64,000 nucleotides of DNA from Haliotis asinina (Eukaryota > Mollusca > Gastropoda > Lepetellida > Haliotidae). The stretch spans positions 44,001,001-44,065,000 of the forward strand of contig NC_090291.1 of the NCBI RefSeq assembly GCF_037392515.1, given 5' to 3'. The notes beneath the pieces were generated by a model. The model was not told the DNA's origin. It worked only from the letters and a program-made list of their open reading frames with translations, and did no database searches. Below are positions 7,701 through 43,201 of this stretch, piece by piece. Position numbers and translations under genes: made by a program. How positions within the stretch are numbered: position 1 is the stretch's first letter; every line of letters starts with the position of its first letter.

Positions 7701-10700
7701 CAAACAGCAGGACCTGCCACATGTCAACTGTCAAATACAAACCTCCTGTGAGCTGGGTAGATGGGGACGTGCAGATACGCATCCTGTATGTCGAGACTTC
7801 ACAGCCACATTCCGGGGGCCAACTTGAGGCGCAGCTGTTCCAGAGACACCATCTTGAAGTGAGGAGGCTCCATCAAGTAACAATCATTGAACGCTGCCAT
7901 GTTGTGGATGATACGTAACTTGTCGGAGTCCTTCTTGGGAATGAGCAAGATCGGGGAGTAGAACCCTGGTGAAAGGTGTGGGTCCAACACTTCCTCAATG
8001 GTACACTTCTCTAGTAACACCTCGATGTTGTCTGCCAGCAACTGGTGTTGCTTCTCTGGATACACCCATGCCAACGGCTGAGATGTCAACTGTAAAGGTT
8101 GTATGACCATTAGTTTGTAGCCCTTCTTTAGGATTCTGGTAACGTAAGGATCTTCTAGGATGGACCAGTTCCTCCAAAAAATGCCCAGTCTCCTGCCTAC
8201 TGGTGTAGGGAAAACTGGCATGGCTGGGGGCGGGAGCTCCAAGTCGTGACAGGTAACACCCTCAACGTTTTAAATAGGGGCGCTTCCCTTTCCCTCTACC
8301 GGGGGTGGTGGGGGCATCCCTGGTTGCGTCTGAAGGCTTGCGATGATCGCTGCCACGTTGCCGTGACCTCTGGTAAAGGCGGATCTGACATATTCCCTCC
8401 TCAGGACGTAGTGTTTCTTCCCCCTGTCGTGTGTTCCAGCTCTGTCACGAAAGGCAGAAGATAGGGCCTCAAATTCTGACAACATCTCAGTGTTAGTTAG
8501 CTCCGGCATGCTCCTTATAAACCTCCTGGATAGCATTTCTGAAGAGGGCCTCTGAGGAAAAGAGAGTTATGAGACGCCGCTTGAACTTCCTGTCGTCGTC
8601 ATAGCTAACGCTGTATGGATGTGCCCCAACAGGTCATGAAGCATCTTGCCCTGCCATAAGAATAACAACGACAAATACTCCAACCGGGACTTCAGTCAAA
8701 CCACAGCCGCTGCTGACGTAGCTGCCGCGATCGGGGGAAAAATACTGCTCTTCATCCATATTCCAAAATACGCCCGACTTGCGCTCCGGAGCCTGCTTCC
8801 TGTGCACCGACTGCCTGGCCCTAGGAGATGCAGATCGGGATCATGACCGCCTGCTCCTTCTCCTACGGTGAAGTAATCTGGCCTGATGATCCGGAGATCT
8901 GGAAGACAATAGATGCCGACACATCAACATCTGTTGATTGTGATTTGCCCACAGGCACCAACGCCAGTAAACAGATGCGCTCCTCTCTTGGCATTGCTGC
9001 AAAGTCCAGGACCAATGGAGGAGTCCTAGTCATAGGCATCGTCAACTCCTGAGATGCGCCTAACATCATCGAAGGGTCAGATACCAACAACGCTCGTAGA
9101 ATCCGCTGTACCTCCGGGTGCGCTAGGGCGTCTGGCCTTGACAAGTCTACCCAACCTCCAGTCTGGGTGGTTGGTGTCAGCGTCGGTATCTGCGTCAGTA
9201 TCTGCGTCGGTATCAGCAATGACGTCAGTATCTGCATCAGCGTTGACTCCATCCTCACTGAAGTATCAGACGCCGCCCCCGGTGCCTCCAGTGCTGTCTG
9301 CAACTCTGGTGTACCAGGCGCCGACAATCTGGATCCTGAAGAGGACGCAGGTGAACGGGACATCTTGCATAACTTCTGAGTTTTCCTCTTCCTAACCACA
9401 GCCAGGAAAACTTTAAACTCTGCACTTGTCAAACTTGTACATGCTGCACAACACTACTCAAGGGTGCACGACACCATAGCACAATCCGGACGCCAGGGGT
9501 GAGGATCCTTGTCTGACTTCAGGCCTTAACACACCACTCACAAGTGTCATGTCATACACAACTACTGACTTAAAACGAAATATAAACGTGACAATAAGGA
9601 TAAATGAAAAAACATGTGCAGCAGCTGCTTTGCAAATGACAAGTGAAATGGCTGCCGCTAAATAAGGACAGCAAAATTTCACTAGATACAGCGCCATTTG
9701 ACAAAAAATGAAACAAAAATGCTTAGATATGGCGGAACAAATATCAACAGAAACTAATCCGCCGAAAAATAAAAACGATCCTCTTAAAATTACGGAGGCA
9801 ACATCGAAAACAGGTGACACACAACAGTGTCTTGTCCATGGTAGCCAACAAGTGTACGATAACGAATTATACGTTATAACCAACACAAAGATTGAAAATA
9901 TTACATACCACAACACCAAGAACCTGTAAAAGGAATCAGCGCAAAAACGTAGTAAATCAAACTTTATTAGTTAAAAGAAACACAGGTAGCAACTCAACAC
10001 ATCTAGACAAGACGATAGCAATTCAACTCTGTCAGATCTCCTACTAAGTGACAAGAGGTAATATGACCTAAGGTAAGGTGAGTAAAAAATAATACACACT
10101 GCCATTTAAAAAGTTGTTAAATGTAACCTAAGTTTGTAATCTCATTGACGATTCTGGTACTTTTATTAGGTTGTGTCCACTCTGTAGATGAGTAACTCAT
10201 GTGAGATCACTGGTAGGAAAAGTGTAAGATAAAGTTCCAGGTTTGTGACAGGCTACTCCACAAAACTTACCACAGTGAGGACTCTCCATTTCATACAGCA
10301 TCCATTCATTTGCATGGAAGGGGTTGTGGAACCACATGGAGTGGTCAAGTGAGGTAGTGGCGAATGAGGCCTTCTTGTCCGCAGGCATCAGAGCGACGTC
10401 TAACAACATGAGGTCTGACATGTAGGCGGCAGCACACTTGTGCATGTTGACATTGTCACCTGGAACATAAAACATGTCACTGACAGTAAAAAACCAAAAC
10501 AATATCACCAAGAACACCATGAGGTCCAACATGCATGTTGACACTGTTACCTGGAATAAAGAATAAGTTGTTGACTGAAAATAGCCCAACAATATCACCA
10601 GGAAAATCATGTAGGCAGCAACACACCTGTGCATGTTGACATTGTCACCTGGAACATAAAACATGTTGGCAGCATTATTCCCATGAACAATATGATGACA

Positions 10701-16091: not shown

Positions 16092-16211
16092 GAGACGAGC
16101 GAGTCAGGACGTGTCTTGCACGCATGAATAAAGTAGTGTACGTTGTTTCTTGCATCTTTCTCTCTTTCAGCTATCTCCCATCTAGTCGATTTCGGGTGCT
16201 TTTAGTTACCT

Positions 16212-16680
16212 GTGACTAGGAAGCTCTCTCTTTTTCTGGTACAAGTCACCCTATCAGCTGCTAGGATTTCGGCCGCCATTATCAACCTCAGACGGGAAGG
16301 CTTCCTGGGGCATACTAATATCCCTCCGGAGATTAATGACTCCCTCCGTCACCCCTCAGTGTCCGCAGACACTTTGTTCGTGGGGGAGATCCCAGAAGCC
16401 CTCCGCACGCGCCTTGAGATCCAGCAGCAGGATCTAACCAATCGGATCATGACAAGTGGTGGACCCTCCGCAGGCTCCACCCCCTGCAAGCGTCAGAGAG
16501 GTCCTCCAGCGGACCAGTCCACTCCTAGGAAGCGGACAGGGAAGGTGGACTTTCAGTTCGGAGGAAGTGGCCGTGGACCCACGAACCAGTCTAACCAGCC
16601 CAGGCAGGCTAACCAGGGGTTCCAAACCCCCAGCAAGGGCAGTCCCTGGAAACGGACCAAGGGTAAGTGGCAGGCACTTT
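16212..16680 (+). pseudogene. DIRS gag-like remnant
   Basis: About 150 codons with 'VTLSAARISAAIINLRREGF' and a Pro/Arg/Gln-rich tail. It runs directly into mid-RT sequence at about 16680, which implies an internal deletion that joined gag to RT. No ATG start fits; the frame is inferred. Confidence 0.6.
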
Positions 16681-17810
16681 CAATGGAATGTCCTCCCGTT
16701 TGGCATTTCCTCCACCCCATGGCTGTTCACTCGTGTGACCCAACCCATCGTCCAGTTCCTCCACAAACTCCAGGTACAATTACTCATGTGCCAGGACTAT
16801 GGTTTCGCTCACAACCCTTTCCCCTCCATTCTCGAGGTGCAATGGGACCTCGTCATCCACGTCCTTCGACGCCTAGGGTGGTTAGTGAACCTGGAGAAGT
16901 CGGATCTAGTACCATTTACCTCTCCTCCAATACTTAGGCGCCATACTGGATACAGAAGCCCTCAAGGCCTTCGTACCCAAGGAGCAGATGACAAGGCTAT
17001 CACCCCTAATGACTCATGCACTATCACAGCCCCTGTCCCCCAGGCAGTGACAGAGGATACTGGGCCTCCTGACGTCAGCCCAGGACCTAACCGTCAGAGG
17101 GAGGCTGATGCTCCGACCCCTTCAGGTGTTCCTCAACGAGCACGTCAGGGAAACCCACTGTCTTCACCCTATAACTCTCCCACCTCACCAAAGACACTTC
17201 CTCGCATGGTGGCGAGTGGACCCCCCTAGGATACCTCCCCCGACCAGTCACCTTTTTGTGGACACCTCCACCCAAGGATGGGGCGCTCAATTGGGGTCGG
17301 ACCAGACGGCAGGTACCTGGTCAGCAGACCAGAAGGACCAGCACATCAATGTGCTGGAGTTGGACGTCATCCGGCTACTCCACTGGTCTGTTCCCCTCAG
17401 GCACCAGATCATACTGGTCCACACGGACAGCTCGGTCGCAGCCTGGACGATCAACTGACAAGGTTCCACCAGGGCCACTGCTCTCCTAGACCTGACACTC
17501 AGCTTCTTCAAACTGGTAGACAGGCTCCACCTGAGCATCCCAGGAGCCAAGAACGTCCTGTCAGACGCTCTCTCCCAGTCGGACGCGCCTCCTTCAACGG
17601 AGAGGCAACTGAACCCGCGGACGTTTCAGTCCCTCTGTCTCCAGTTAGGCAGGCCCATGCAAGATCTGTTCGCCACGAGGCTGAACTGCCAGCTCCCCAT
17701 TTATGTATCCCCAGTACCGGACCCAGCAGCCTGGGCCCTCGACGCAATATTGTTAGATTGGGAAGGGATGGATGCTTATGCTTTCCCTCCCCCAGTGACA
17801 GGTAGTGGCC
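16680..17810 (+). pseudogene. DIRS RT remnant and RNase H
   Basis: 'FQWNVLPFGISSTPWLFTRV' matches the RT region before the YxDD box, but the box itself is lost to a second deletion or frameshift. RNase H follows with 'LFVDTSTQGWGAQLG', 'INVLELDVIRLLHW' and 'VHTDSSVAAWTIN'. The Asp-Glu-Asp order of RNase H is visible. Then comes 'DLFATRLNCQLPIYVS', matching DIRS copy 1. Not functional as read. Confidence 0.82.
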
Positions 17811-18039
17811 AAGCTTCAGACCACCAAGTCCATCAGACTGCTTCTGGTGGCTCCCATGTGGCCCACTCGACCCTGGTTCATTCCCCTTCGCAGACTTTGT
17901 CTGCAGGATCCTATTCGGATCCCTATCCAGAGGGACCTACTCCTAAGCAAGCCAAGCGGCCGCGTTCACGAAAACCCTCAGGTATTCGATCTGCAAGTTT
18001 CGCTCGCATTCAAAGGGGGCTCAGGTAGAGCTGATACTC

Positions 18040-18990
18040 CAAGCGAGTAGCCTCCGCCCTGGCTTCCTCACAGAGGAAAACCGCTCAGAAGCTCTACGAC
18101 TTCCAGTGGGGCTCCTTTTCCACCTTCTGTGAGGACCAGGGCGTGGAGGTGGATTCTGCCACTCTGCCCCAGATAGCTGACTACCTGGTTCACCTGCGCA
18201 ACGTCAGAGGGCTCAAGGCCTCGTCCATTAGCACCAATCTGGCGGCAATCATGTCCAAACCATGGCCAGGACTGGACATTTCAGTGCTGAGGGAACTAAT
18301 CAAGTCTTTCTGACAGGCGGAGGGTCGGTGCAAGCCGAGGGCTCCTGATACGGATGTGGCGGTGGTCGTTGACCACCTCAAGTCAGATTTTTATGAGCCT
18401 CTGGAAGAGGCTTCCCTCCTCCGCGTCACTGTCAAAACCACCTTTCTAGTGGCCATTGCCTCGGCGGCCCGAATATCGGAGCTTCAGGCGGACTTCCTGA
18501 GATTCAAGGTCGCAGACGGAGGGTCTGCATCCCTGGGACTAGCCCACGACTTCGTCTGCAAAAACCAACAGGCAGACAATCTGGGACGTGCCTTCCATAT
18601 CCCTTCCTTAGGGCCGTTGGTAGACCCTGCAGAGGAGGGAGCGCTCTCTCTCTGCCCCGTTAGGGCTCTCTCAGACAGTGACGGCGGAGGCTCTTCCTCC
18701 CTCACTCCCAGAGGAGCAAATGGGAGATTGACAGGAGAGCGCTTTGGGTCTACCTTCGGTCAGCCATTATAGAAGGCCTACAAGAGTCAGGACAGGCCAG
18801 TGTCACCTCGAACTAACCCACACGAGATTAGGGCCGTTTCGGCCACCATGGCTTATCATCACAACATTGCGATGGCAGACATCATGGCGGGCTGCTTCTG
18901 GAACCACTATTTAAGAGCCCTCTCCAACGAGGATCTGGCGGGCATTTCCAGACCTCACCGTTTGAGTCGGCGCGGTGTTCCTCCTCCTTA
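18040..18990 (+). pseudogene. DIRS tyrosine recombinase (broken)
   Basis: The N-terminal part has 'KTAQKLYDFQWGSFSTFCED'. The catalytic part has 'ASAARISELQADF' (first Arg), 'NPHEIRAVSATMA' (HxxR) and 'NHYLRAL' (Tyr). In-frame stops lie at about 18312 and 18770. The catalytic residues are intact although the frame is not continuous. A possible poly(A) signal AATAAA lies at about 19063. Confidence 0.85.
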
Positions 18991-19149: not shown

Positions 19150-20050
19150 GACTAACAGCTAGTCTCTGAAATGAACATATTTTACTGAAAAAAACGTCCG
19201 CAGTGAAAAAAAAATAATAAAATGAAATGGAGCCCTGAGACTTTCTTCATTTTCAGAGACTAAACAAATCTGCAGAGCGATAATTTCTTGGAATTTCTCA
19301 ACACATGCAAAGATCCTTATCACCCATTACTGACAAGCCACTGAAGGTGTATGTGACAGGACTTTTTATTGCCCCTAACATCACCCAACCCAACCCAACC
19401 CCTACTCCCTCTCAGTGTGGTGTGGGCAGCTCAGGGGAAGTATCAAGTGTCGGAACCACATAGCTCAGGGTTAGCATCTCTTGAGACTAACGCTATGGCT
19501 GGAAAACTGGATGTATCCAAAACTCCAACAAAGATATCAAATATAATTTTTCTGTCAAATCAAAATATTCTGTCTGCATTATATAAGGCAGTTTGATTGA
19601 AATCACATGGAACAGGAGAAAACTGTTTATTGGAAGTAGTAAGACAGAGCCATGTCTTTGATTGAAATGTTTTACAAGTAACAGTTGATAGGAAATAGGA
19701 AATGTTCAACACACACAGTGTGTAGAAAATGTTCACATGAGGTCGCTCATATGGACACTACCTTGTGTCGTCTTGTAAAACCCTTTGAAAACACTGTCAT
19801 CGATTTGTACCTTTCCTGTGGAATTGAAGTCACAAAACAACTGAGATAAAAAAAACAGTCTGTTGCACAGACCCTGAAGCAAATATATCCAGGAAAACTC
19901 ATGCAAGTCTAGAAAATGTGGCAAGTCTAGACTTCCTTAGCTTCTAAAAGTGAAGAAAGTTTCAGTCTCCACTTTATTATGTTATTCTTATTTTTTTACT
20001 ATGACCTTTTCCCAGTAAAATATGTTCATTTCAGAGAGTAGTTGTTAGTC
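19150..20050. mobile_element. 901-bp TIR element nested in DIRS copy 2
   Basis: Ends share an inverted repeat of about 38 bp beginning 'GACTAAC'. The inner part 'TGAAATGAACATATTTTACT' is identical on both sides. TA flanks both ends (19148-19149 and 20051-20052), suggesting a TA target. No transposase ORF, so non-autonomous. Confidence 0.75.
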
Positions 20051-20316
20051 TATCGAAGACATTGTGAGTCAAGGGACTCGCTCAGGAAGACAGTATTCCA
20101 GGAAGGAAGATCAGGAATCTTGGATAAAACCAGACACATGTTGCCACGTGGTGAGAGGACAGGGCAGCAGGTCTTAGTCAAGTGTGGGGCCATGGGGGAG
20201 CTGTGTGTCTGTGTGTGTGTGTGTGCTCTCCATGAATTTACACTAAACACCAGTGACAGCTAGAGATCAAGTCATAATTACTAGCCATATACTGGCTACG
20301 AATTCAGCAGATTGGT

Positions 20317-20405
20317 ACAGACCCTGAAGCTATGGAAGCTATGGACTTGCCACATTTTCTAGACTTGCTTGGGCTTTCTTGGATATTTATACTTCAGGGT
20401 CTGTA
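20317..20405. repeat. Small foldback related to an inner part of the nested element
   Basis: Bounded by 'TACAGACCCTGAAG' and its reverse complement. The sequence 'CTAGAAAATGTGGCAAGTC' inside is an inverted copy of 19903-19925 within the nested 901-bp element. Confidence 0.6.
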
Positions 20406-20468
20406 CGACAGACTGTGCCATTCTGGGCAATGTTGGCTCACTTACCTGATAAGTATGTAAAGTAAGAA

Positions 20469-20764
20469 ATATAACATTTTTGATTAAATGTCATTTTTTA
20501 TACTTACCTGGTAGAAAGCCAACAATCCGGATTTCCCGCCCAGCCTCCCCTCCTGAGGGTTTATTAACTGCCTCGCTGGGTAAGGGAATGACGGGTACAG
20601 GTCATCTCGTGACCTATGTGACCTACCGCCTGTATATTGACCTGGCGTCTCTACTTTGTGTAGACTGTGTTATGAGAGAAATTGGTTAAGCGCCACTCAA
20701 GTGGTCAATGTTGGCTTTCTTCCAGGTAAGTATAAAAAATGACATTTAATCAAAAATGTTATAT
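20469..20764. repeat. Foldback module and right ITR at the 3' end of DIRS copy 2
   Basis: Arms 20469-20522 and 20711-20764 are reverse complements with one mismatch in 54. The right ITR (20580-20719) lies between and overlaps the outer arm. Same plan as 4914-5216 in DIRS copy 1, with different sequence. Confidence 0.82.
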
Positions 20765-20767
20765 ATT

Positions 20768-21597
20768 TTTACTTGTACGTGCAGCTATTTGCATAGGTAT
20801 ACACTGTTTTTCTGACATAGATCTAGATAAGCTGCGTATGCGGGTAAAATAAGCATAGAAAATGTCCACTGAAAAGCAATTGTTGCATACCAGTTACGTT
20901 AGATACGCAAATATATATATCAAGTTTACTGTTAGTATAGGATTGGTGTTGTACTGTCAGTACAGGATGAATGATTTTTTATGAAATCATTTCAGTTACA
21001 TTTAAATTGGTTTTTATTAAGTATGTCATAAGACAGTACAAACCAGTGCCAAGATTGTAAAAGCTCTCTTAGCGCTAAGATAATCGTAAGTGCCGTACAT
21101 TGACATTGACTTACGACTATCTTAGCTCTAAGAGAGCTTCGAAAATCTAGGATCTGCTTAGTAAACTTGCTCAATGACATGTACTTAAGTGAGTAAAATC
21201 TCTGAAATACCCTCTTATTGACAGCCTGTCTGTCTGTCTGTCTGTCTGTCATATTTTACACCAGTGGATAACGGAAAATAAAATACCTTCTCACCATCAA
21301 TAATACCCACTCCGAAAACACTCGCACAGTAGCTACAGCACCCATTATGAGGTAAACATCAGGAGCTCTGCTGAGACTGTGTCTGATTACACAATGCCAT
21401 TTAGAACGTGTCAAATGTGACATATGTTATATTTGGGATTACACTTATTAGTAAAGTACAAATTCTATTACTTTGGTTTGGTTGATTAATGATCATTATT
21501 AGTGACGTGATTGTATACAGGTTATCATTGCGTTCACGGGAGGCTGACCTGTATCCACTGCCTCCCGACTTACAAAGTGAACAAGACCTGTACACAT
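20768..21597. other. Intergenic with small repeats
   Basis: Holds an 80-bp palindromic MITE (21060-21140), a (TGTC)n run at 21226-21250 and a partial SINE C at 21390-21480 (minus; 'ACAATGCCATTTAGAACG'). No gene supported. Confidence 0.5.
21060..21140. mobile_element. Palindromic MITE, about 80 bp
   Basis: Arms beginning 'AAGCTCTCTTAGCGCTAAGA' and ending with its near reverse complement fold over about 31 bp with two mismatches. Short spacer, no coding capacity. Confidence 0.65.
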
Positions 21598-21765
21598 CCG
21601 GGTTAGAATTGGTGTTCAGTATCCCATGCTTGTCGTTGGAGGAGAGTCGGGTCAGATCGGGGAGTCTGGATAACTGGCTTGATTGACATATGCTATCGTT
21701 TTCTATTGCGTTGGTCGATGCCCATGCCGTTGATCACTGGATTATCTGGCCCAGGCTCGTTCCGT
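21598..21765 (+). repeat. SINE family B, partial
   Basis: Begins 'CGGGTTAGAATTGGTGTTC' and includes 'CCGTTGATCACTGGATTATC'. Lacks the 3' tail. Confidence 0.65.
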
Positions 21766-22616
21766 AAGACAAAATATATAATTGGTCTGGCCTTTTTGAA
21801 AATTACAACACAGGGCTGACTTTCAATAACTGATTTTATCCTCTGACAAAATATTTGCCGTGAGTGTTGATATTGCACATTATACACTCTTAAAAAAAAA
21901 CCCCGCAAAACCCAAATATCAATGAAAATTTGGTGTTATTCAAGGACGTGTAGATAAGCGGAAAACAAAGATACATAAATGAATTTTTTGTGGAGCGATG
22001 CATTGCTATCTTGTCCATATTTCACATCGATTGGCCGTCAGATTGGCTTGGACAAGCGCAAGTTCCGATCTGCGGGTATATGAGATCGTTCCCCACACCA
22101 TAACACTCTCTCTACCGACTGATTGATAAAACCGTTCAAAATCACTTTTAGTTGCGTTTGGTCAAGCATCAAGCATGATCTTCTAAAACATTCCAGAAAC
22201 AATGTGCAACCCTAAGAAATTCTTTGAGTTTACATAAGTGTACATAAATGTAAGTATTCATTTTGCGTTTCCTCTTTTTTCTTTTTCTTTTCTTTTTTTC
22301 TTTTTTCTTCTATTTTTTTTTTTTTTTTTGCTTTTGGAGAGTGTATGTTATTAACTGACCCTGCAATCCTAGAAATTGATATTTTAAATGTTTTTGCTGA
22401 AAGAATTGTTTTCAATATAAATGAGAATCAAAGAAAACGGAAGGCGGTGGAGTCGGGCTGACATGTACCTGTCCTTCCTTTTCCAAGGGTTGCCTTTCTG
22501 TTGATCTGTCCGTGCTGAAACGGGAGGTGTTCCTCGCATTCTTGGATCCTCTAACCTCTCACTCCCCTCACCACCAACCACACACACACATCACATCACC
22601 CATCGAACCCCACCAC
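21766..22616. other. Intergenic, with a pyrimidine-rich tract
   Basis: A C/T tract (about 22268-22330) of mixed CTTTT units and poly-T, and a CA-rich stretch near 22578-22595. No gene supported. Confidence 0.5.
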
Positions 22617-23312
22617 ACCCAGTCATTGTACAGTAATCACCTAAAATATCTACCAATCACGACGATTTCGTTATCACATAAAAGATTACGGGCGCTCAGC
22701 GCCTGATCCATTTGAAGATAAGATGTCAAGTCACTATGACCCAGGTGACACCTGCTTCCAAATAACATGGAAATCCCAGGCATAGTACAGTAATCACCTA
22801 AAATATCTAGCAATGACAACAACTATTTTGTCACATAAAAACTGAAGGGCACCAAGCGCCTGGTCCATTTGAAGATAAGAAGTCAGGTCGCTATGACCCC
22901 GATGACACCTGCTTCAAAATAGCATGGAAATCCCAGTCTTTGTACAGTAATTACCTAAAATATCTACCAATCACGAAGATTTCATTATCACATAAAAACT
23001 GTAGGGCACCAAGCGCCTGGTCCATTTGAAGATAAGAAGTCAGGTCGCTATGACCCCGATGACACCTGCTTCAAAATAGCATGGAAATCCCAGTCATTGT
23101 ACAGTAATTACCTAAAATATCTACCAATCACGAAGATTTCATTATCACATAAAAACTGTAGGGCACCAAGCGCCTGGTCCATTTGAAGATAAGAAGTCAG
23201 GTCGCTATGACCCCGATGACACCTGCTTCAAAATAGCATGGAAATCCCAGTCATTGTACAGTAATTACCTAAATTAGCTGCCAATCACGACGATTTCAAT
23301 ATCATATATAAA
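22617..23312 (+). repeat. 157-bp tandem array upstream of the GIY-YIG gene
   Basis: The marker 'GTACAGTAAT' occurs at 22628, 22785, 22942, 23099 and 23256, an exact 157-bp spacing. Four full units are followed by a fifth partial unit that ends in the TATA region of the next gene. Units 2-4 have 'CATAAAAACTG' where the fifth has 'TATATAAACTG'. The array therefore looks like repeated promoter-proximal sequence. Confidence 0.9.
23305..23311 (+). promoter_or_regulatory. TATA box of the GIY-YIG gene
   Basis: TATATAA lies 45 bp before the ATG at 23356, implying a 5' leader of only about 20 nt. Placed by consensus only. Confidence 0.5.
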
Positions 23313-23355
23313 CTGAATCACGCCAGCTTCACCCGCAGCTTCTGCACTGGACAGG

Positions 23356-25076
23356 ATGAGGTAAGCAGTAGTATGTTATGAAGGATTGCTATATCACGTT
23401 GATATATGTTCAATATGTTCAAAAGGAAGTATTTTCATAATTCATTAGTTAATATCATCACCCTTTGATTCAAATATATGTATGCAAGATGTAGTGAGAT
23501 ACTGGGCTTTCTTTAGAGCTTTGTATCTGAGCTATTTTCTAGAAATTGTTGGCTTTTTTCGCTTTTTAATGTTAACATTATATGAAAGTTTTTTTTATGA
23601 TTTCAGCAGGACAAAAAGGGTTCCGGTAAGTTTGTTTCAAAAAACATTTCTTTGAGCTACATTAGTGTTACAGTAATATTCAAACATCCACTAAAGAAAT
23701 AATAAAACAGGATCAAAATAACTGATTTCATCATATCTAAAAAAGTGTTTGTTTTCATGATATTAATTGATCATGCAAATCTAGTAATTGATATTTCAAA
23801 TTCTGAACAGTTTTTCATAAATAATGTTGCTGTTAATCACCTTTCTACAGTTTCACGAAATGAGATCAAAGACATTGTTATGTTTAGCATTGTGCACAAG
23901 CTACACCATGTATTTAGTTTCTTACTTAAAATCACTCTTTAAGGTAATTTCAAAATATGGAGTGATTGAGTTTAGTTTTGCTCCACACTCAGCAATATTC
24001 CAGCTATATGACTGCCGTGTGTAAATAATCGAGTCCAGACAATCCAGTGATCACCACCATGAGCATCGATCTGCTCAATTGGGAACCGATGACATGTGTC
24101 AACCAAGTCAGCGTGTCTGACCACCCGATCCCGTCCGTTAGTCGCCTCTTACGACACTCATAGTCGCTTTTCATGGCAAACATGGGTTGATGAAGGCCTT
24201 GTCTACCCCGGGACCTTCACGGGTCTTAGAAATATGGAACAGCTCTATGACCACTCGTGACAATAGTACATAACCATTTAGTTTAAGATTAGATTTGGTG
24301 ATGGAAAAACTTGAATCGAACACTGTAATTTTTTCTTATAATTTCAGAAAGACACCCATTGTCAAAAAGCTGCAAAAGGCAACTGACTCTTAATGTTCGT
24401 TTGGCCAACATTAAAGCAAGTTTTCCCCTCAAACCATAGTCATCACATGGTATCTCAATAATACGGTCATCCATTCGTCACCACTCGCCCATTTCCGTAA
24501 CCCCCGGCATGTCCCGGAATAACACGAGTTGTTCACGAAAAGGCCATCGTCACAGTGAAAACTTTTATAACCTTGCATTTTAATCGTCTGTCCTTGATAT
24601 CATTCACTGAACTGCATTTGAAAGGCTTTTTAGATAGGAGATAAAACTGCCATATCATTGTCATCCGACTGAAAAGAAAACGCTCAACACTTTATAATTA
24701 ATGAACATTCATATGTTTGTTGCAGAGACCGATAGAAAATGCTAGCAAACGGCTGGTGCGGAAACCAAGACCATGGTACTCCCGACCTCCTCCCTCAAAG
24801 AAGGGTTTGTATTCAGTTATGAAAGATAAAAGGCCCATATATGTAGGAAGATCCTGCGACATTCGAAGGCGCCTCAATCAACATTTCTCCGGCAGCTCTC
24901 AAGCCATTGACAGGTATCTGAGAACTAAATCAAACAGTTACCTGCAGCGTCACATTCAGGTGTCCTGGGTCCAAGACAAGAGGAATAAATGCCATGAACA
25001 GAGCGTCATGAAGGGTGTTGAACGCAATCAGAAGAGACGTCTGACGTACAATAAGCGGGCTGGAGATTCTTGCTGA
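23356..25076 (+). CDS. Stand-alone GIY-YIG nuclease-fold protein (three exons)
   Basis: Exons 23356-23360, 23607-23625 (19-nt microexon) and 24726-25076 join in frame to 124 aa beginning MSRTKRVP. All introns are GT-AG. The protein is very basic. From residue 35 it shows the complete GIY-YIG signature: Gly35-Leu-Tyr, then Tyr47-Val-Gly, Arg57 and His61 at the spacing seen in I-TevI, a candidate catalytic Glu99, and a closing Tyr-Asn at 116-117. These residues form a divalent-metal DNA-cleaving site in the family. Nothing else is fused to it: no RT, UvrC or helicase. It is unrelated in context to the Penelope-type GIY-YIG at 35.4 kb. Exon 2 has a CAG-CAG acceptor, so residue Ser2 may be optional. 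Substrate and role are unknown; a DNA repair or processing role or a captured homing-type nuclease are options. A SINE B sits in intron 2. Confidence 0.82.
23960..24232 (-). repeat. SINE family B, near full length
   Basis: Reverse orientation: 'TGAGTTTAGTTTTGCTCCAC' tail first, then 'GGGAACCGATGACATGTGTC' and 'TCTGACCACCCGATCCCG'. In intron 2 of the GIY-YIG gene. Confidence 0.85.
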
Positions 25077-25217
25077 AGGAAACTCCAGGAATTCACAAGT
25101 TCAAAGATTTACTATTACAATGAACAGTTTTAAATAATATAATTAATTTTATGTCATTTGATTTTTAACATTTGTCAGCAAACGTTTTGCTTGAAATCTA
25201 TTGGAACCTTCGTACAG

Positions 25218-25223
25218 AATAAA
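25218..25223 (+). terminator. Poly(A) signal of the GIY-YIG gene
   Basis: AATAAA 142 nt after the stop codon, so a short 3' UTR. Confidence 0.55.
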
Positions 25224-25521
25224 AATATGTAACTAGTCACCTGTTTGTTTGTTGTTTTCTATTCTTTCTCAAATAATTGCCCAATCAATATTTTTGTTTG
25301 TTCAGGTGGCACAACTTTGCTTTTTATGGTTTTGCTAGCGATATTCCCGGCTCGTAGGCCTGGATATACTCACCTGTTGTGGCATCACGTGTAATACCTC
25401 TTGAAAGAACACGGGCGCGTTTTCTCCTCGCGGTACATCTTTGTGAAGCGTAGAGAAACATTTGACATTAACATTTAACATTTGACGAAATGACTTCTTT
25501 TCATTCGTCACGTCAACGAAC

Positions 25522-25665
25522 ATGGCGACGTCTCACCTGACTCATGTCGATAAGCGTAATGTGGTACGAGAATCCTTGAGCATTGTGAACAGTGACTATC
25601 CTCAAATACCTGTCCAGCAACAGCAAGTATATATTTCTACACCAGTAGATGGAATCCATTAGCAG
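25522..25665 (+). other. Possible first exon with a 46-codon ORF
   Basis: An ORF starts MATSHLTHVDKRNVVRESL at 25522 and ends with TAG at 25660-25662. It is followed three bases later by a strong donor (CAG|GTAAGC). It could be a 5'-UTR exon with an upstream ORF, or a coding exon with a nonsense change. No partner exon was found, and I recognise no family. Confidence 0.3.
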
Positions 25666-25989
25666 GTAAGCTATGTGACTGCCACTGACACCCCTTATAT
25701 AGTAAAGTAAATTGAGGACATCAAAGTCTTAACATAACTAAAAATAGGCAAATCAGGAAGCAGTAATTCCTAATTGGAAATAAGTATTGTAATTACATAT
25801 TCAATACTTCTGTTTGCTATCCAGATGAACTTTGAAGCGATGGCCAACATGGTAGCACTAACTGTCTTTACGATGTCGACGTGGAAGGGTTGCATTTTCA
25901 CTCCACACTGCCGATTTAGCCCAATCACCCATTTGCACGAAGAGGACACTTTTCACTTTTTCCAGAACTTAGCTTTTACACGTTCCGAG

Positions 25990-26150
25990 AATTCCTTGGG
26001 TAGCCTAGTGGTCAAGGCGGCATTGGCTTGTCACGCGGAAAGGCCACCATTCAGTTCTCAGGTAAAATCAATTTCCTGTGTGTGTCCTCCGCCATGATAT
26101 ATTATTTTATTATGAATATTGCTAAAAATGGCGTGAGACCAAACTCACAG
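25990..26150 (+). repeat. SINE family A, rearranged copy
   Basis: The A-box region 'GGGTAGCCTAGTGGTCAAG' and the tail 'AATATTGCTAAAAATGGCG' are clear. The middle differs from other copies. Confidence 0.65.
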
Positions 26151-26344
26151 ATTTATGGATATCAGATTAAAGGTCAAGCTAGTTCTGCCCATGACAAGAA
26201 ATTGGATACATTTTGAATTTGGAGGGCAACATCACCACCTTTGCTTCATTCTGCGCTCTATAGTATTGGAAGAGCAATAATATGACAAGGGATTTGTCAA
26301 ACATCTTGTGAATATTTTCTATTGCGCTTTCAAACATGTCATAG

Positions 26345-26402
26345 CGGTAGTTTTGGAGATTAGTCAAGTCTCCTTTCTTGGGAAGGAGTATTGTACGACC
26401 TT
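26345..26402 (-). pseudogene. Possible non-LTR reverse transcriptase remnant
   Basis: The minus strand reads 'GRTILLPKKGDLTNLQNYR', which resembles the RT entry motif of LINE elements. Sequence beyond it shows no further RT motif. Too short to classify. Confidence 0.3.
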
Positions 26403-27014
26403 TGCAAACTATGGGGGAGCATCACCTGTAACGTTGAGATAACTGAAAAACTGAAAGTAATATTTTTGGGGACACACAAAACAGTTTCCAGTACCGGTTC
26501 TCAGACAATAAGTTAAGCGCTACCAGATTGCAAAATAATTTTTTGCAAATATGTGGAACTCACATTCATTCTTGATAACAGAGATGTAAAAATTGGGACC
26601 CAGTGTTAAAGATAATACGTTCACTTGACAAACTGACAACATTAAGTGAATGGTCATACATTTCAGTGATTTCGTAGCCCGGAACGTGTTTTGTGTCATT
26701 CCTGTTGAGGAAGCACCCTCTTCGTGACATAACTGTCCCCGACAGAAAAAGCTGATTTCTCAGTTTGCACGACCTCAGGTATTAAGGTCGTCGCACGAAA
26801 CTTGCAGGGTATTCGAAATGGTTTGAATCAATATACCGAAAGTTACTTCAGTTGGTAAATATCTTAGATTGCATTATTAGAGCCTTTGCCAGAAATTCTA
26901 CCATGAGAAACAAGGGTTTCGCCTTTGAACAGAATATCACTAGGAAAAAACAAATCCAATTATTAGATTGTTCGAATATCCTGAGATTCTAACAAAGATA
27001 CCTTTAGAGAATAC

Positions 27015-27668
27015 ATGTACTACTATATTGCGAAACGAGCTCATGCGCTGTTGAGAATTTTCAAGTACAACTATGAAAATAAAACAGTACAGACCTACTT
27101 ATGTTATGTTTTGGTGAATTGTCTGCTTGTAATTACGACGCGTCTGGTTGATGGCCATGGTTCTGGTGACATGATAGTTCTTAGTAAATTAATGTTATTC
27201 CACGGCATCTGTGTCGGAAATTCTTTAACCACAAATGAATTTAATATGGGATGGCCTACATCGAAGATGTTTACTAGTACGACCTGTGGAGTTCTACTGA
27301 GGACGTCCAGGGGCACTTGTTCTGTAAATACAGACAAGTTTGTCTTGTTTTGGTCCATGTTGTCAGTGATGAGGGACATATACTATATACCTCTTTGCCC
27401 TGTCTCCTTGTTTGTAATACGTCTCCTGGGGTATCCTGTAGACATAAATCATTTGAATTATGAAAACAATATGCATGCATATACCGAACCTGTGAAAAGC
27501 CACAAGGCCGTTCATATAGGAAAGATAGGTGTGCTTGTTTTGCTTCTGCATACTTCTGCATACTTTGTCAAGTTCCCTTTTTGATGTGCTTCTCCACATA
27601 AGACGCTCACAGAGAATATTATTTGAATTCCTTTGTCTGGAACAAGAAGTAAGCAATTTCATATTCAT
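27015..27668. other. Overlapping long ORFs on both strands, unrecognised
   Basis: Plus strand 27015-27584 is open for 189 codons from an ATG. The minus strand holds 27668-27363 (101 codons) and 27379-27104 (91 codons). The minus peptide containing 'FPTQMPWNNINLLRTIMSPE' looks the more protein-like by composition, but the frames do not join without a shift. Could be a decayed gene or chance. Confidence 0.3.
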
Positions 27669-29801
27669 CGTGATTTTATAAGTGCATTATCTAATGGAGC
27701 CTTCAAGCTGTGATGAAACTGTACATTTTAGGTCCTGAAACATCTCAAAAGCATCATTTCTCACAGTGGTTTATGTAACTGTAGTGACAAGAAATTGCTG
27801 ACAACTTGCTGAAAGCTTGGAACTTGGTATACGTAAGGTATCTTCATTTCCAAAGATGAGAAGAACTTTCTCCACAGCTTATTAAGACCACTACAACCAA
27901 TCACCAGATTGCCATGATCAACGTAATCTTCAAGATAGGCATTTTAGATTTGCCCTTTGTAAGGTCCAATGGGAGCTGGATTTCTGTTTTCTACGAATGT
28001 ACACAAAGTGAGTAATCGATGAGTTACACCATGATTTCCAGAGACAAGTAGTCTATGGATGAGGAAAAGGAAGGAAGAAAGCTGTCTGTGACAGTATACA
28101 CTGGTATGAAAACAAAACGACCAGCATTAGTGTATTCAGACTTTAGATACTGTATCATGCAAAGAATTACTCTAAATAATAACGAATACGATATGATGGT
28201 GCTCGAAAAACACACATACAAACCAACCTTTTGAAATACTGATCCAGCGACACTTTTGCCTACAGGTTTTTCGGGAATCGTAGTTCTGATCAGATCTTTA
28301 TTCAACTTTTTGAGGTAGACAGTCTTTCATAGCTCTCATGATAAGTAAAATTTATTATTTCATTGTAATTAACCCAATTATTGGTTAAACATATAACATG
28401 TAAAATATTCAGTAAACACACTGTTTGAAAGAAAGAATGACTTTTTTCACCTCAACAGTTATGTTTGACTTACGTGGTGTTACTGATCTTGCTGGTTTTA
28501 TAGTACGCCAACAAGACTCTGCAAACCTCGTGGCCTTCGAGGGTGAAGAGAACATCAGATAGTCTTTGTTCTTGTTATCTGAAGACTCCTTTCAAATTTA
28601 CTTTTGATGAAGCGACTCTGGTCTGGGTCTTCTTAAAAGATAACAATCTAGTTGGGGTTATATCTTCAAAAGACAGTGTCTCCAAGCTTCCTTTTACACA
28701 ACACTTGGTCACCAAAGCTTCCTTTATGTCTTATGATGTTAATGCTTTCTGTTCTCGTTGTTACCTTCATTGAAACATGATATGATTGAAATAGTGCCAA
28801 AGTGACTATAAATTTTAGCTCACTCACTAACTAGCCTAGTTGTCCATGTCCATTTACGGATATACCTATATCTGAATCAGTATCTCAGCTGATATGCTTG
28901 ATTATGTAGTGTATTTTATTTTCCTTTGAATATCATAGGCTCCCGTGAAAGGTCAACTCATCATAACGGATGGTAGGTTTACCCCTTTTTGGACCCGGGG
29001 TAGAACAGGTCTGTTGCACCCCGCTGCTGATCGTAAGAGATGACCGAAACCGCCTGTTTGCCGCATCTCACTGGTTTCAGGAAAAGCGTTCCTTTGCCCC
29101 AAACACCACCCCGGCCCTTACTTCACCTAGACGGGTTGTAGAATGGTTCCGGTTCTATCAACTGGCTGGTCACGCCAAGCCCTGTACATGGTGATTATAC
29201 TTGCACATAAGATTATCATTTGGCTTTGGTTATTTTGGTTCTCAGTGTACAAATTATTCTTATTTTATATTTGACTGCTTAGAGTTTTATGCTAGAAGGC
29301 GGTGGCTCATGGGCCAGCTAGAGTATATCATCCTGGTATCCATGGTGCTCCAAGCTAGAGATCGCTCCTCTAGCATTGTCTTTACGATACTCCATGGTGA
29401 TGGGGAGCTCGAAAGATGAACCGTTAAACAATGGACTACCAACCCCTTACTAAACGTCCACTTGACAATGTTAAAGACCACAGACCGACCAAATCAACTG
29501 ATTATGGTCACATTATAGTGATCACGACTCTATGCAAGACGCTCCTGAAGTTAAACCCTTTTTCAAACAAATGCGTTGAGAAACTATTACATTATAATAT
29601 TGCTTATTAGAAGCCTTATTGTTTCTGGTGTCCACTCACCGATCGTGCATTCTGATTAAGATGGGTTCAGGTGTTTTTTGTGAACACTCTTTGTTATGAA
29701 ACTTGTATTTTTACATTGTACATCTGAAGAACCATTAACAATTATCTTATTCCGATGGAGGAGTTTTGACAAGGAGTATCAGGACTAATTTTTTATTTAT
29801 A

Positions 29802-30558
29802 CTGACGGGCAAAAGAAACTTAATGTTGCAAAATGTATCATAATTTCAAAATATAAAATCACTATCAAATACAAATTGTTCCATCGTTATTGCCTCAAAC
29901 ATGAGTTTGATTACCACAAACAACAGCGCCCAAACACAACTCTTTACCACTTTGGACGAAAAACAAGAGAATGCGCGTTCACGTGCACGTATGGTATAAA
30001 ACCACCCCACAGTGCCGAGTAGATCGCACTTCAACAGAAAAATACTTAACAATGCCAAGGTTAACTCCAGAAGAGCCATCGGAATGCTGCAGATGGGCGC
30101 CACTACGGGTGACGTTGCAAGAACGTTCCACTGTTCTGTCGTTACCGTCAGGAACCTTCGTCGGCGTTATCAACAGACTGGGCAGACCCCAGACAGACCC
30201 AGGACAGGCAGGCCAAGAGTGACAGCTGCGCAGGACGATCGCCACCTGAGGCTGTTACACCTGACAAAACACTTACTGACGGTGACGTCATCAGCGGCAA
30301 CTGCTCTCGGTCGCCCAGTCAGTCGACGGACGGTAGCAAGAAGACTACGTGCCAATGTTATGTGGGCCTACCGACCGTACGGAGGAACGCTGCTGACTGA
30401 CAGACATCGTCATCTGAGAGTGCAATGGGTGACAAGAGTAAGACGAGGGCAACTCCGTGACTGGCACCGAATTCTGTTTAAGATCTGTTATATCTTAAGA
30501 ACCCTTTTCTTTCAATAAAATTGAATCATCACACATCAAAAGTTTTTTTTCTGCCTGG
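29802..30558 (+). mobile_element. Tc1-like transposon, internally deleted
   Basis: Left end 'CTGACGGGCAAAAGAAACTT' next to TA. The right end near 30558 is a degenerate reverse complement (AAGTTTTTTTTCTGCC). At about 757 bp it is half the usual length because the catalytic half of the transposase is gone. Confidence 0.7.
30053..30518 (+). pseudogene. Tc1-like transposase, N-terminal half only
   Basis: Starts MPRLTPEE, shifts frame at about 30072, then continues 'RAIGMLQMGATTGDVARTF' with the helix-turn-helix and the 'GRPRVT' linker. It reaches 'RDWHRILF', where Tc1 enzymes begin the first catalytic Asp block, then changes to unrelated sequence. The DDE domain is absent. Confidence 0.8.
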
Positions 30559-31509: not shown

Positions 31510-34500
31510 ATGTTGGTATCTATATTGCTGGCATCTTGGACATACAGTGTAGTATTAGGTAGGTGTTTCCCTTACTTAACTCGAGAAGATAACCTCAAAG
31601 ACACTTCTGCACAACCTAATTTTTTAAATATAATTCTTTAATGTTTTATTCACCCAATCATGAATAGGTTCACTAGGAATATTGGCTACTGACAAATTGT
31701 GGCTAGTTGGCTAATTGTGATATGTGAAAACTGGAACAACCAAGCATACTTTGAGGTATGAAAATGTATGACCTGGGGGCACACAAATAATATGAAAAAG
31801 AATGGCGGTCTGTAAATAATCGAGTCTGGGTCAGACAACCCAGCTATCAACAGTATGAGCAATCTTGGCCATTGGGAAGCGATGATATGTGTCCACCCAG
31901 TCTGACCACCCGATCCCGTAAGTCGCTTATTACAACAAGCACAGTCGCCTTTCGTGGCAGGCATGGGTTGTAGAAGAGCTATTCTACTCCGGCTCTTCAT
32001 GGGGTCTATGAATTACTGCTAGACACATATTAGATGATCCTGCGCACTAAACGCATTTGTGACAAGAGAGACGGTACAACGAATTGGGCGAGTACACTTG
32101 GCTGCTACAGGTAGTTTGACGATTATGCACGTGCAATACATGCTAACCGTGATATGAAATCAACACTGCATATTCCTTCGAATGATAAGACTGCAATTTC
32201 AGGCATAAGATACTGATATTCCACGCTAACCTTTCGTTAAGACGCAGACAAACAGATGATTGGGGCATTGACAAGCATTTTAGATATTCAACAATTTTGT
32301 TTAAAAAACCCAGGAAAATGTCATTTGCTTCGTGAAATGGATCGGTGGTCCTAAACATGTTTGCTCAGTATATTGTGTTGATTCAATTCGTTGGGATTGT
32401 ACCTGTTCCCAAATCGAGTGTGCTATAACAATCCATGCGTGAAACGCACGGGGAAAATGAACTACTCGATATTTATCAGAAAACCTGTCTCCCTCTTGTT
32501 TCAAGTGGATCGTTCTGTGGGGCGTTCCCAAGTATGCAAATTGGGGTCATTTGTCAGGTCGTGGATCATCTTATATGTGTTTACCAGTATATGAGGTAAT
32601 GCGTGTTTTGTTCCGTTTCAGGCTCAGGGCAGTTTGAAGGGTCCTCCTTCTTGCTGACTTACTCACCCACAGGGAGTACGGATGTACAGGAACAAATGTA
32701 CTTATATATGACAGCCAACCATAAAGACACAAGCTGCAACGTGACATCAGGATCAAGATCTTCCACCATATTGCTTGATACCAGTTGGAACCGGTATATA
32801 CTGCCTGAAACAAACAACATCAGCACATTTGGCATATACAGGAAGAGCGCAATTGAAGTTAGTTGTACAGGGGATGTGCAAGTGTATGCATTGTTTAATA
32901 CTGTAACGGGTGTAACTGGTTCCTTTGGTGTCATCCCGGTGTCATCCCTGTCCACTGATTATATTGTTCCGTCGGTTGATAGGAACCCCACATTGTCCAT
33001 AGCCGCACCATCAGACAACACGGCCGTAACTGTGTTCTTCACATCCAACTGTCCCTTCAGCTATCTGAATAATACGTTCTATAAAGGTGACAATATTTCA
33101 GTATTGTTAAACAGCGGAGACGTTTTTCACATTGCACACTTTGAAAACTATCCAGCATCTCAGTGTGATTATCATAGTACGCGTGTATTTAGTACAAGTC
33201 CAGTGGCTGTGTTTTATGGCTCAGGTTACATTGCTATGCCCGGCGGATGTGGCTTGAAGGTACTAGACCAATTAATGCCTGTAAGTTCCCTTGGAAAGGA
33301 TTATGTTATTCCTTCCATTGATCAAATGGACTCGAAGCAGGTTCGAATATTTGCACTTGTGAAAAACACGTCCATTACTCTGACTGAAGGCTACAAACGT
33401 TTTTCGTTCTCACTGGATCCCGGGCAGATGCATGTCCACAGTTCCGATAATGATAATATAGTTACCATATCAAGTTCTGAGCCTATTAGTGTACAAAACC
33501 CCGAAGGAGCTTATGGTAACTGTACAGCTTTGTCGTCAGTGGTACCACCCATCAATAGATATGGACATAAGTATACATTTCCAGATCTTCAAGGACATAA
33601 CCACACGTTCACCCGCCAGCTTGGGATTGTCGTAGACAGCAACTGTACAAATCAAATTAGTAGCAACAACCATTGGCGGAATGTATCAGTTGGTGGTCAT
33701 CAGTATTCTGTCACAATATTACGAGCTCCGGCCACTCTGACCCATCTGAACACGACACCGAACTGCAGGTTCACCATTCACGCCTATGGACTCAGTCAAC
33801 ACGGAAGCTACGGCTATTTTGCTGTTCCTAAGTCAGCTGGTTCCTCTAAGGAAAACAGTAAGTGAAGGAATCTTCCAGCATCTGCATCATTTGTATTTTA
33901 AATGTTAAAACAGCAAAGCGTTCGCGGTTCTACGCCATTATTATTTCTATAATAAAGTATCGAGTTACGACAGGTCGTAACGTTGCGAATTCTTTGTGGA
34001 TCAGGGCCCTTATTCTCGAAACGTTCGTAGCCCTAATTCTTAACTTTGATCGTAGCCAATGTGTTAAGAATGGGCTTAAGAAGTTCGTAGGGCTACGAAC
34101 GTTTCGAGAATAACTCGCCAGGACACTGCGCTACAGATATGATGAGGTTTAACACTTTCAGACTGCGATTAAAACGAATGGCTTTATTAGCAAGGTGGCA
34201 AACGTTTGAAATATGTGTAGCCAAACATGAGTAGGGATTCAACATATGATATAAAACAACTGAAAATATAATGAGATGTTTTTATGTATGAGCTTAGATC
34301 TTGTATCCAAAGAGAAAATATTAGTGGTTGATAATATATATCTCGAGAACACAAGTTACGATTTCTCAGAACTTACTTATTAATGTAAGCTGGTGTAAAT
34401 ATCAGCTCTAACATTCTGTTGCGTCACATACATTTTGTTGATAATTTTACAGTAGACTGTAGATGTAAATCATCTTTCATCGATCCTCTCACTACACTGT

Positions 34501-37500
34501 TTGGTTGCGAGTTCCTTCTCCAAGTATATTTATCATACCTGTTAAATATGTCCAAGTTTCTAACAAGTATTCTTGCTTATTTCCAACCATGACGTTTTCA
34601 GCCCATCTAGATCTACAGAAAGCATTTACTTTGGTCTGCGAGACGAACAACTGGGTGGTGGAGGTGAACATGGACATGTTTGGTAACGGCTTTGGCAAAC
34701 ACTCTTCCTCAAATATTTTTATGTCGACTGGAATCTGTCATGGCGCTTCCATGGGGCATGCACTGGTATTCAACTACACCTACACTGATTGCAATACGCA
34801 CATGCAGGTGGGTTGTACAGGTTGTCGAGGTTAGCGTGGGGAGGTATGTACACGTAAACTACCCCCCAAAGAAACGCATAGGTAGTATTTTTCCATTTAA
34901 CTTTTCGAACTATGGTGAACGCTGTCTGCAAACATTTCTGAGTTTGAATCTTTTGTTATTGGGGACAACTCGCCAAAATGTACCCAAATCTGGTTTCCTC
35001 AATAAATGAAATAAATAGTGAACGGGAAGAAATTCATGCATTTCCTTTTGCGCGCACCATTTCTATGCATCATTTCCAATATAAGTCGGGAAGGGGGAGA
35101 AGGTGGTTCAATGCTCTTGCGACAGGTGACAGTCTTGAATTTAAAATTCTTCAAAGGCATTTAGAAGTTGGTGAGGTAATACAAGACACTATTATGGATG
35201 ACAACTTCTTTAATTCTTTTAACACGACGTTTCAAGGCTAATTCTTGCCCCTTCGTCAGGTGGATAATGAGCATAGGTAACATTGCAGAATATATATATA
35301 GGTATACATGAAGCCAGGCAGGTAAGATGTATATACAAGCACATAGATGTAATTAGGTATGTACAATCACAGAGGAGAGATGAAAAGGAGGAATGTTTTA
35401 ACAGTACATGGTTGTTTACACAGCTGATAGATTGAGAGTCTATGAGTCCTTGTTGTCACACCAGGCAGAGGGTAGGTACACGCCTTGATCTCTATTGATC
35501 TGAGGTTCTAATCTTCTGATGTTGATTGCTTCCAAAAGCTTCCTTCTCCGCCAATCACTGATGTTGGAAGCCAGGATCTCGGTGTTTTTCCAGTTGATGG
35601 AGTGGTTTGGATAGTTCACGATGTGTTCAGAGAGGGCCGAGTTTAGATCTAATTTTCTTACTGAAGTTTTGTGCACTTTGAGTCTGATGTTGAATGGTCT
35701 GCAGGTTTCACCTATGTAGCTGCTGCCGCAATCACAGTTTATATTGTAGATGCAGCCTCTGGGGTTGGGGTTGGTTTGATCACTGCACACCTCTTCCATT
35801 TGCTCTAAGGATGTTTTTCAATGTCGTATTAGAATAAAAGGTCACATCAACACTGGCAGTTTTTCTGAGGAGTCGACTGATTTGATGACTTATCTTGCCT
35901 TCGTATGGAATGTTGACTCGGATGGGTGCAGGCTCAGGTTCAGGGAGGCGGTCGTTCTGATGCTGGAGAGTTGTGGCTATAGTCTGGTCAACGAGTTGTT
36001 TAGGGTATCCATTGAGGGTGATGAAAGTTCTCTTGAGGTGGTCAATTTCGTCTTGGAGGTGGGCTGGGTCACAGATGGCTTTGGCACGTCTGGCTAGGGT
36101 GGAGACTATGGCTTTTTTTATTTGTGGATGGTGGTTGGATAGGTTGTGGATATACTGGTCAGTGTGGGTGGGCTTTCGATAGACAGTGGGAACGATTCTT
36201 TCAGATGAGTTGTCAAGGGATACGTCGAGGAATGGCAGCTTGTGTTGGGCTTCTACTTCCTTCGTGAACTGGATGCGGGCGTGTTGTTTGTTAAGGTGGT
36301 CAATGAGTTCTGCAGGGTTGTGGTAGGGATCAAGGATAGTGAAAGTGTCATCATCTTTTCTATACCACCATAACGGTTGGAATGGCGATGTAGATTGGGC
36401 AGATTCTTCAAAGCTGGTCATGAAGATTTCAGTTATCAGCGGTGAGAGAGGTGAGCCCATGGGTAGGCCATGGATCTGCTGGTAGATGTTGTTCTGCCAT
36501 GTGAAGTACGAGGTTTGGAAACAGCTAGACACAAGGTTGATGATACTGTCAATGGTGAGTTTAGTGTCAAGGGTGTCAATACAACTAGTTAACTTAGCAC
36601 GGAGAACATCAAGAGCTTCAGGTAGAGGGATGTTAGTGAACAAATCAACAACATCATAGCTGACCATACGGCCAGATAACTTAGCGTCCAAGAGTTTTTG
36701 CACAAAGGAATGCGTGTGGCCGAACACGGGGAGAGGTGTCTCAGTCTGCGATTGCAATGCAACTGAATGTGTCACAGAGTGTCACAGAGTACCATAGCAA
36801 GACTTTGGCATCGCTACCAGCCGCAAGGGCCAATACGTGATCGATCCAGGTCAGGTCGACCCCGTGTAACCACGCCCGCTCCGGACAGGTTTATTCGGCT
36901 TCGACTGTTGCGGAACGGGTTCACCACAGCATCCTCCACAACGTTGGAAGTGTCAGGACGGACTCAGAATAATTTCTGATCAGACTATGAGGAACAGCTT
37001 ACGTGAGGCTGGTATTCGTTCCAGAAGACCTTTGCGAGGACCTGTCCTTACACGTCAACGTCGGCAACAACGCAGACAGTAGTTTGGGCGAACATATCAT
37101 GCAGTGGCAGGACAGATCTCATTTAGGTCCAGGGCAATTTGACAGCTCGACGTTACCGTGATGAAATCATCAGGCCTCATGTCCTTCCTTTCATGAACCG
37201 CCAGAACGTCATTTTCAGCATGATAACGCTGGGATGATAACCAGGGATTACCTCACGATCACCGGATCTTAACCCTATTCAACATTTGTGGGACGAATTG
37301 TGACGTACAGTTTCTTCCAGCATTGGACCGTTAATGTTCATTCAGGTTTTCTTCGTGACTGTCCTGGATTACTGAACCTTAAGTGTATACATTGATACCA
37401 TTTTCAGCAATCCGTTTCCTTTTTGTGAGTAGTATATGTTGGTTATTGTAGTGTGCAGGGTTCTATACAGGGATGTCTGTGCAGAGATATGGATTTTAAT

Positions 37501-43140: not shown

Positions 43141-43201
43141 ATGCTCTCTTCCAGCCATCATTGCCAATTAATCAGCTATATATAGCTTGGTTTCACTCCA
43201 C

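Follow-up and report, generated by a model that had tools for sequence, protein, structure and literature searches.

The GIY-YIG nuclease SLX1 acts on branched DNA, keeping the genome stable, and T4 endonuclease II is a small, stand-alone phage nuclease of the same superfamily. The bacterial UPF0213 (YhbQ-type) proteins, which are relatives of SLX1, consist of a single GIY-YIG domain of about 100 amino acids. Human proteins with annotated GIY-YIG domains number two, SLX1A and ANKLE1 (PMC13179284), and ANKLE1 likewise acts on branched DNA and keeps the genome stable (PMC10287932). RING-less eukaryotic Slx1-like proteins that have a GIY-YIG domain and an unstructured extension alone, such as SJCHGC08377 of Schistosoma japonicum and At2g30350 of Arabidopsis, were reported in 2006 (PMC1564403); that report also counts, in a table, three eukaryotic 'unorthodox' relatives of homing endonucleases. 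A precedent for a stand-alone GIY-YIG protein in an animal thus exists. PMC6215123 mentions a GIY-YIG transcript of mussel, and PMC4764851 a lungfish genome in which GIY-YIG domains have expanded.

The gene lies in a 64,000-nucleotide stretch of the genome of the abalone Haliotis asinina (contig NC_090291.1, positions 44,001,001 to 44,065,000), hereafter the window, and our literature search found no description of it. A sequence-only reading of the window had held that the known animal GIY-YIG proteins (SLX1, ANKLE1 and Penelope endonucleases) are larger or fused; as a general rule this is too strong, because stand-alone eukaryotic examples are known, that of Schistosoma included (PMC1564403). 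Like the RING-less Slx1-like proteins, the gene product is eukaryotic and has a GIY-YIG domain with little else; those proteins are classed as Slx1-like, and the comparison with them is one of descriptions. The product does not have, at the matching position, the RPW stretch that follows the YIG part in two aligned SLX1 chains, and it has an Asn near its C-terminal end (Asn117) that Slx1 members are without according to the table in PMC1564403. It resembles the UPF0213 proteins in being a single domain, nearly all of which is matched by their profile, but unlike them it is an animal protein from a spliced gene, with a long basic N-terminal tail and a Gln (Gln100) in the column of the catalytic Glu. 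With the N-terminal nuclease domain of UvrC and Cho it shares an E-x-x-hydrophobic-hydrophobic-K motif and a YN pair near the C-terminal end, although it is without their C-terminal parts and has, by hand alignment, about six extra residues before the YN pair.

Structure of the gene

The features of the locus are as follows, in window coordinates.

22618-23317, no strand: tandem array of a 157-bp unit, 4.5 copies about 90% alike, the last partial copy holding the TATA-like box near its end
23305-23311, + strand: TATA-like box TATATAA, 51 nt 5' of the ATG
23356-23360, + strand: coding exon 1 (ATGAG), donor GAG/gtaagc
23607-23625, + strand: coding exon 2, 19 nt, with a NAGNAG acceptor (23610 also in frame), donor CCG/gtaagt
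23960-24211, no strand: dispersed repeat within intron 2, SINE-like (label given by eye), with ten more matching pieces in the window, 74-86% alike
24726-25076, + strand: coding exon 3 with stop codon, holding the whole GIY-YIG domain
25218-25223, + strand: AATAAA poly(A) signal, 142 nt 3' of the stop codon

Both the three-exon, in-frame model and its 124-amino-acid product, as first proposed in the sequence-only reading, were reproduced from the sequence. The first two exons are tiny (5 and 19 nt). Scored with approximate splice-site frequencies, their donors GAG/gtaagc and CCG/gtaagt rank in the top 0.3% and top 0.4% of the window's + strand GTs, and acceptors 23607 and 24726 in the top 0.6% and top 1.7% of its AGs. 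On the + strand, 2 of 58 strong acceptors had a chain of ATG, exon and exon that stays in frame; on the − strand, none of 73 did. The thresholds for these counts lay just below the gene's own site scores, and acceptors in the opening 3.5 kb of either strand were excluded. Both successful chains are built on the gene's own exons 1 and 2 (acceptors 24726 and 24348), and no other tested locus of the window yielded one. Nine one-exon joins into exon 3 can also be made, for example from ATG 23482 or 23569 to donor 23625. The length of the open frame is not significant by itself: when 8 kb was dinucleotide-shuffled 200 times, 52 of the shuffles had 123 or more codons without a stop on the + strand. 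The GC content of exon 3 is 0.474, compared with 0.371 for intron 2 and 0.380 and 0.385 for the downstream flanks. The model of a spliced, stand-alone gene of host style, with a predicted transcript, is supported.

We note that acceptor 24348 is a strong alternative within intron 2, in frame with exons 1 and 2, and that its use would add 12 further codons to give a short product without the nuclease domain.

Two readings of the 157-bp array were rejected. A hammerhead or other known ribozyme finds no supporting Rfam match: none reached the gathering threshold anywhere in the window, and the three matches within 22300-25400 (E 1.2 to 6) are far under their gathering scores and lie outside the array. 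Nor does the array look like an amplified promoter plus exon 1, since 172, 187, 198 and 376 of 500 shuffles reached the similarity that the four full copies show beyond the TATA-like box.

A single basic GIY-YIG domain

The 124-residue product (14.8 kDa) has a pI of 11.3, with 33 Lys and Arg against 8 Asp and Glu, and 11 Lys or Arg fall among the 33 residues of its N-terminal tail. Residues 34-90 match Pfam PF01541 (GIY-YIG) with 30.3 bits against a gathering cut-off of 22.6 (E 5.3e-7), which by the Pfam criterion makes the protein a member of the superfamily; the match ends short of the catalytic-Glu region. PF01541 is the single Pfam domain above its cut-off, PF20815 (GIY_YIG_2) falling under its own (19.1 versus 22.4 bits). 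The description of the product as a basic protein that is essentially one GIY-YIG domain stands.

The chain ends seven residues past Asn117, and the accompanying domains of other GIY-YIG families were not found with it. Neither the protein nor the nearby six frames hold a RING finger as in orthodox SLX1, and no ankyrin repeats or LEM domain (as in ANKLE1/LEM-3) occur in the protein or the six frames of 20001-29992. The NUMOD DNA-binding domain of orthodox GIY-YIG homing endonucleases is found neither in the protein nor in the + strand frames nearby, and this single-domain protein has no UvrC C-terminal Cys-rich or UvrB-binding domain and no Cho-specific domain.

Mobile elements and the surroundings of the gene

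GIY-YIG domains are often carried by mobile elements (PMC1564403), and the gene could descend from the nuclease of such an element, a transposon or homing element that has gone unrecognised; the nuclease would now stand alone, as a relic or domesticated. The window is rich in such elements (RT-bearing, Tc1/mariner-type and Penelope-like), and the tandem array abuts the promoter of the gene, both of which speak for this origin. The immediate surroundings do not: a six-frame Pfam scan of 20001-29992 found no RT, transposase, NUMOD or other domain above cut-off besides GIY-YIG, a DUF7015 match (E 0.03) being under its cut-off. The gene is spliced, tblastn (E <= 10) found no second copy of it in the window, and the 15 inverted-repeat pairs within 21500-26500 are weak, being 74-88% complementary and no longer than 52 nt, with none seen in the position of element ends. 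We consider such a relic unlikely.

The window has a Penelope-like element of its own at 35440-36781 on the − strand, with RT (RVT_1) identified by Pfam, sitting between IgGFc-binding and zona pellucida domains. Its endonuclease (35440-35817, recognised by eye and not by Pfam) is also an animal GIY-YIG domain, but it lies behind the RT, in another frame, and has a CxC before the YIG. BLASTP aligned it with the gene product over 23 residues (E 0.018). In a shuffle test 10 of 300 shuffles scored as high as this domain; for six bacterial or phage GIY-YIG domains, picked because they already matched, the count was 0 of 300 each. The Penelope comparison is with the window's own copy; Penelope elements with a permuted endonuclease form a further branch, reportedly the subject of a study. 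With no RVT match in the six frames of 20001-29992 and almost no endonuclease similarity, we rejected the idea that the gene is a Penelope fragment. The earlier statement that it is not part of a retroelement thus agrees with 10 kb of surrounding DNA without RT or any recognisable mobile-element domain, and the homology check that had been proposed for a Penelope or other mobile-element origin, now run, does not bear out a fragment.

Elsewhere in the window, 20 ORFs were scanned with Pfam: 17 out of 42 that encode 110 amino acids or more, plus three shorter ones. An IgGFc-binding domain (32600-33865, + strand) and a zona pellucida domain (38027-38446, + strand) are host pieces, possibly of one gene. 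Two similar-looking elements, at 6136-8269 (− strand) and 16206-18772 (+ strand), are DIRS/Ngaro-like by eye only; the first has an RT (RVT_1) at 6964-7872, and the two scanned ORFs of the second gave no Pfam match. Tc1/mariner-type transposase pieces lie on the + strand at 30000-30518 (below Pfam cut-offs only), 40115-41119 and 49597-50037. Minisatellites occupy 43198-45037 (55-bp unit, 33 copies) and 61110-62363 (22-bp unit, 57 copies), the latter keeping long + strand frames open.

Active-site residues

The motifs GLY (35-37) and YVG (47-49) and the residues Arg57, His61 and Glu99 are all present in the product. Tyr37, Tyr47, Arg57 and His61 are in register with UvrC in a seven-row MAFFT alignment, and Arg and His follow the YIG Tyr at +10 and +14, as they do in the UvrC rows. 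Asn117 stands within a YN pair resembling that of UvrC. We assigned catalytic roles by analogy with human ANKLE1, whose activity is lost when the first Tyr, the Glu or the Asn is changed (PMC10287932).

The catalytic Glu is less easily fixed. Judged by eye, Glu99 matches the E-x-x-hydrophobic-hydrophobic-K spacing of UvrC (for example the row EHNLIK), but the UPF0213 profile, which gives the best full-length match, puts its Glu column on Gln100, and the seven-row alignment sets the UvrC Glu opposite Met103. The sequence-only reading had listed all five positions as intact; four of them stand, and the fifth, Glu99, depends on the alignment chosen, so that an intact set is likely.

With Gln100 in the place of the catalytic Glu, as the UPF0213 register has it, the protein could be inactive, a pseudo-enzyme that has kept the fold, lost the metal-binding Glu and remains as a DNA-binding or scaffolding protein. 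An animal parallel is ANKLE2, whose GIY-YIG-like domain is without nuclease activity; that domain, by contrast, has no clear GIY or YIG motif (both from PMC13179284), whereas here Glu99 fits the UvrC spacing and the GIY and YVG motifs, Arg57, His61 and Asn117 are all in place. Loss of activity is about as doubtful, in our estimate, as origin from a mobile element.

Of two structure models, both poor, the second agrees with the GIY-YIG family, a result that is partly circular. AlphaFold run without an alignment gave a mean pLDDT of 61.1 and no recognisable GIY-YIG fold; with four bacterial rows, that is, when fed GIY-YIG sequences, it gave the expected beta-beta-helices-beta-helix order at a mean pLDDT of 51.9. 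Among the best 50 of 87 Foldseek rows, the top 19 are all GIY-YIG proteins (UvrC, T4 endonuclease II, Hpy188I, Slx1 and one UPF0213 protein), and no Foldseek match reached E <= 0.001. A PDB sequence search returned three weak hits, T4 endonuclease II not among them.

Relationships to other GIY-YIG proteins

A UPF0213-type profile matched residues 37-114 with 24.5 bits; of 1000 shuffled copies of the protein it reported 951, with a top score of 8.1 bits. The profile holds 30 proteins, from the top 30 genomes found with phage protein P0004, whose PDB matches are strong for chains of UPF0213 and weak for those of SLX1. Narrow and wide UvrC profiles of 30 rows each both scored 16.2 bits over about 38 residues (31-67). 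The classes are not told apart by mean pairwise scores, which are 54.0 with UPF0213 and 61.5 or 52.4 with UvrC, depending on the set. Trees of 12 of the 30 rows per profile set place the protein beside UPF0213, at 97/95 (starred) with outliers included and 94/95 (not starred) without them; this placement depends on a long branch of 2.24 changes per column, and the AU test does not reject grouping with UvrC or Cho (p 0.055 and 0.058). UvrC as the sole best family was given up after the UPF0213 profile and the trees, and it is a UPF0213/SLX1-like rather than a UvrC/Cho-like placement that profile and tree favour.

Relatives in prokaryotes and viruses are remote. Phage genomes gave nothing under E 0.3 (17 records up to E 10) and plasmids nothing under E 1 (13 records); 3 of the 17 phage hits and 7 of the 13 plasmid hits were examined, H18 and H19 being left out because they show no visible GIY-YIG frame and H20 (L003) also going unused. 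Two PHROGs families of unknown function matched at E 0.0006 and 0.02. Neither the single protein nor a two-row alignment found a match in IMG/VR. The single protein found none in GTDB, where the two-row alignment returned four remote loci with 28-65% identity across 20 to 88 residues: three carry, by eye, a Cho-like GIY-YIG domain (one, L012, with a DEDD-exonuclease part in the same frame) and the other is a 246-residue protein of Caballeronia. In Pseudomonadota, 6 of 398 genomes matched at E <= 1e-4; five of these hits are to UvrC, and the remaining one, in a frame without a GIY-YIG motif, appears to be a chance match. No close relative was found in any of these collections, from phages and plasmids through IMG/VR and GTDB to the 398 Pseudomonadota genomes.

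The sequence-only reading had suggested a captured nuclease. That a UvrC/Cho-like nuclease was taken over from a bacterium or phage is improbable: UvrC N-domains are indeed the best prokaryotic single hits, and the partial NCBIfam hits are headed by UvrC at E 5e-5 and DEDD-exonuclease fusions at 5.2e-5, all far under their cut-offs, but no donor is seen and the UvrC profile scores below that of UPF0213 over a shorter stretch.

A possible host-encoded nuclease

The explanation that we favour, at about even chances, is that the locus is a host gene, nuclear and with introns, whose very basic product has one GIY-YIG domain and belongs to the UPF0213/SLX1-UvrC part of the superfamily. The anatomy of the gene, its domain and the lack of recognisable mobile-element partners nearby are observed; we infer that the gene would be expressed and its product active, with a partner and a role in the cell. 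The basic N-terminal tail would bind DNA and the domain would make a divalent-metal-dependent nick. Tyr37, aided by His61, may activate the water; the phosphate would be the target of Tyr47 and Arg57, and the metal would be held by Glu99 (or a neighbouring register) and Asn117. Specificity could come from a partner or from a branched DNA structure, as with SLX1. It is a more tentative suggestion, and one we hold to be a good deal less probable than the host gene itself, that the protein belongs to an animal family so far undescribed. Such a family of single-domain GIY-YIG nucleases would be encoded by the host, would differ from SLX1, ANKLE1 and Penelope, and would nick some particular DNA structure together with a partner.

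Should the protein prove inactive, or a relative of SLX1 without the RING, the gain would be a modest one in annotation. If it is a third, minimal and host-encoded animal kind, it would offer a compact subject for the study of GIY-YIG catalysis, and might reveal a route of junction processing or DNA defence that vertebrates are without.
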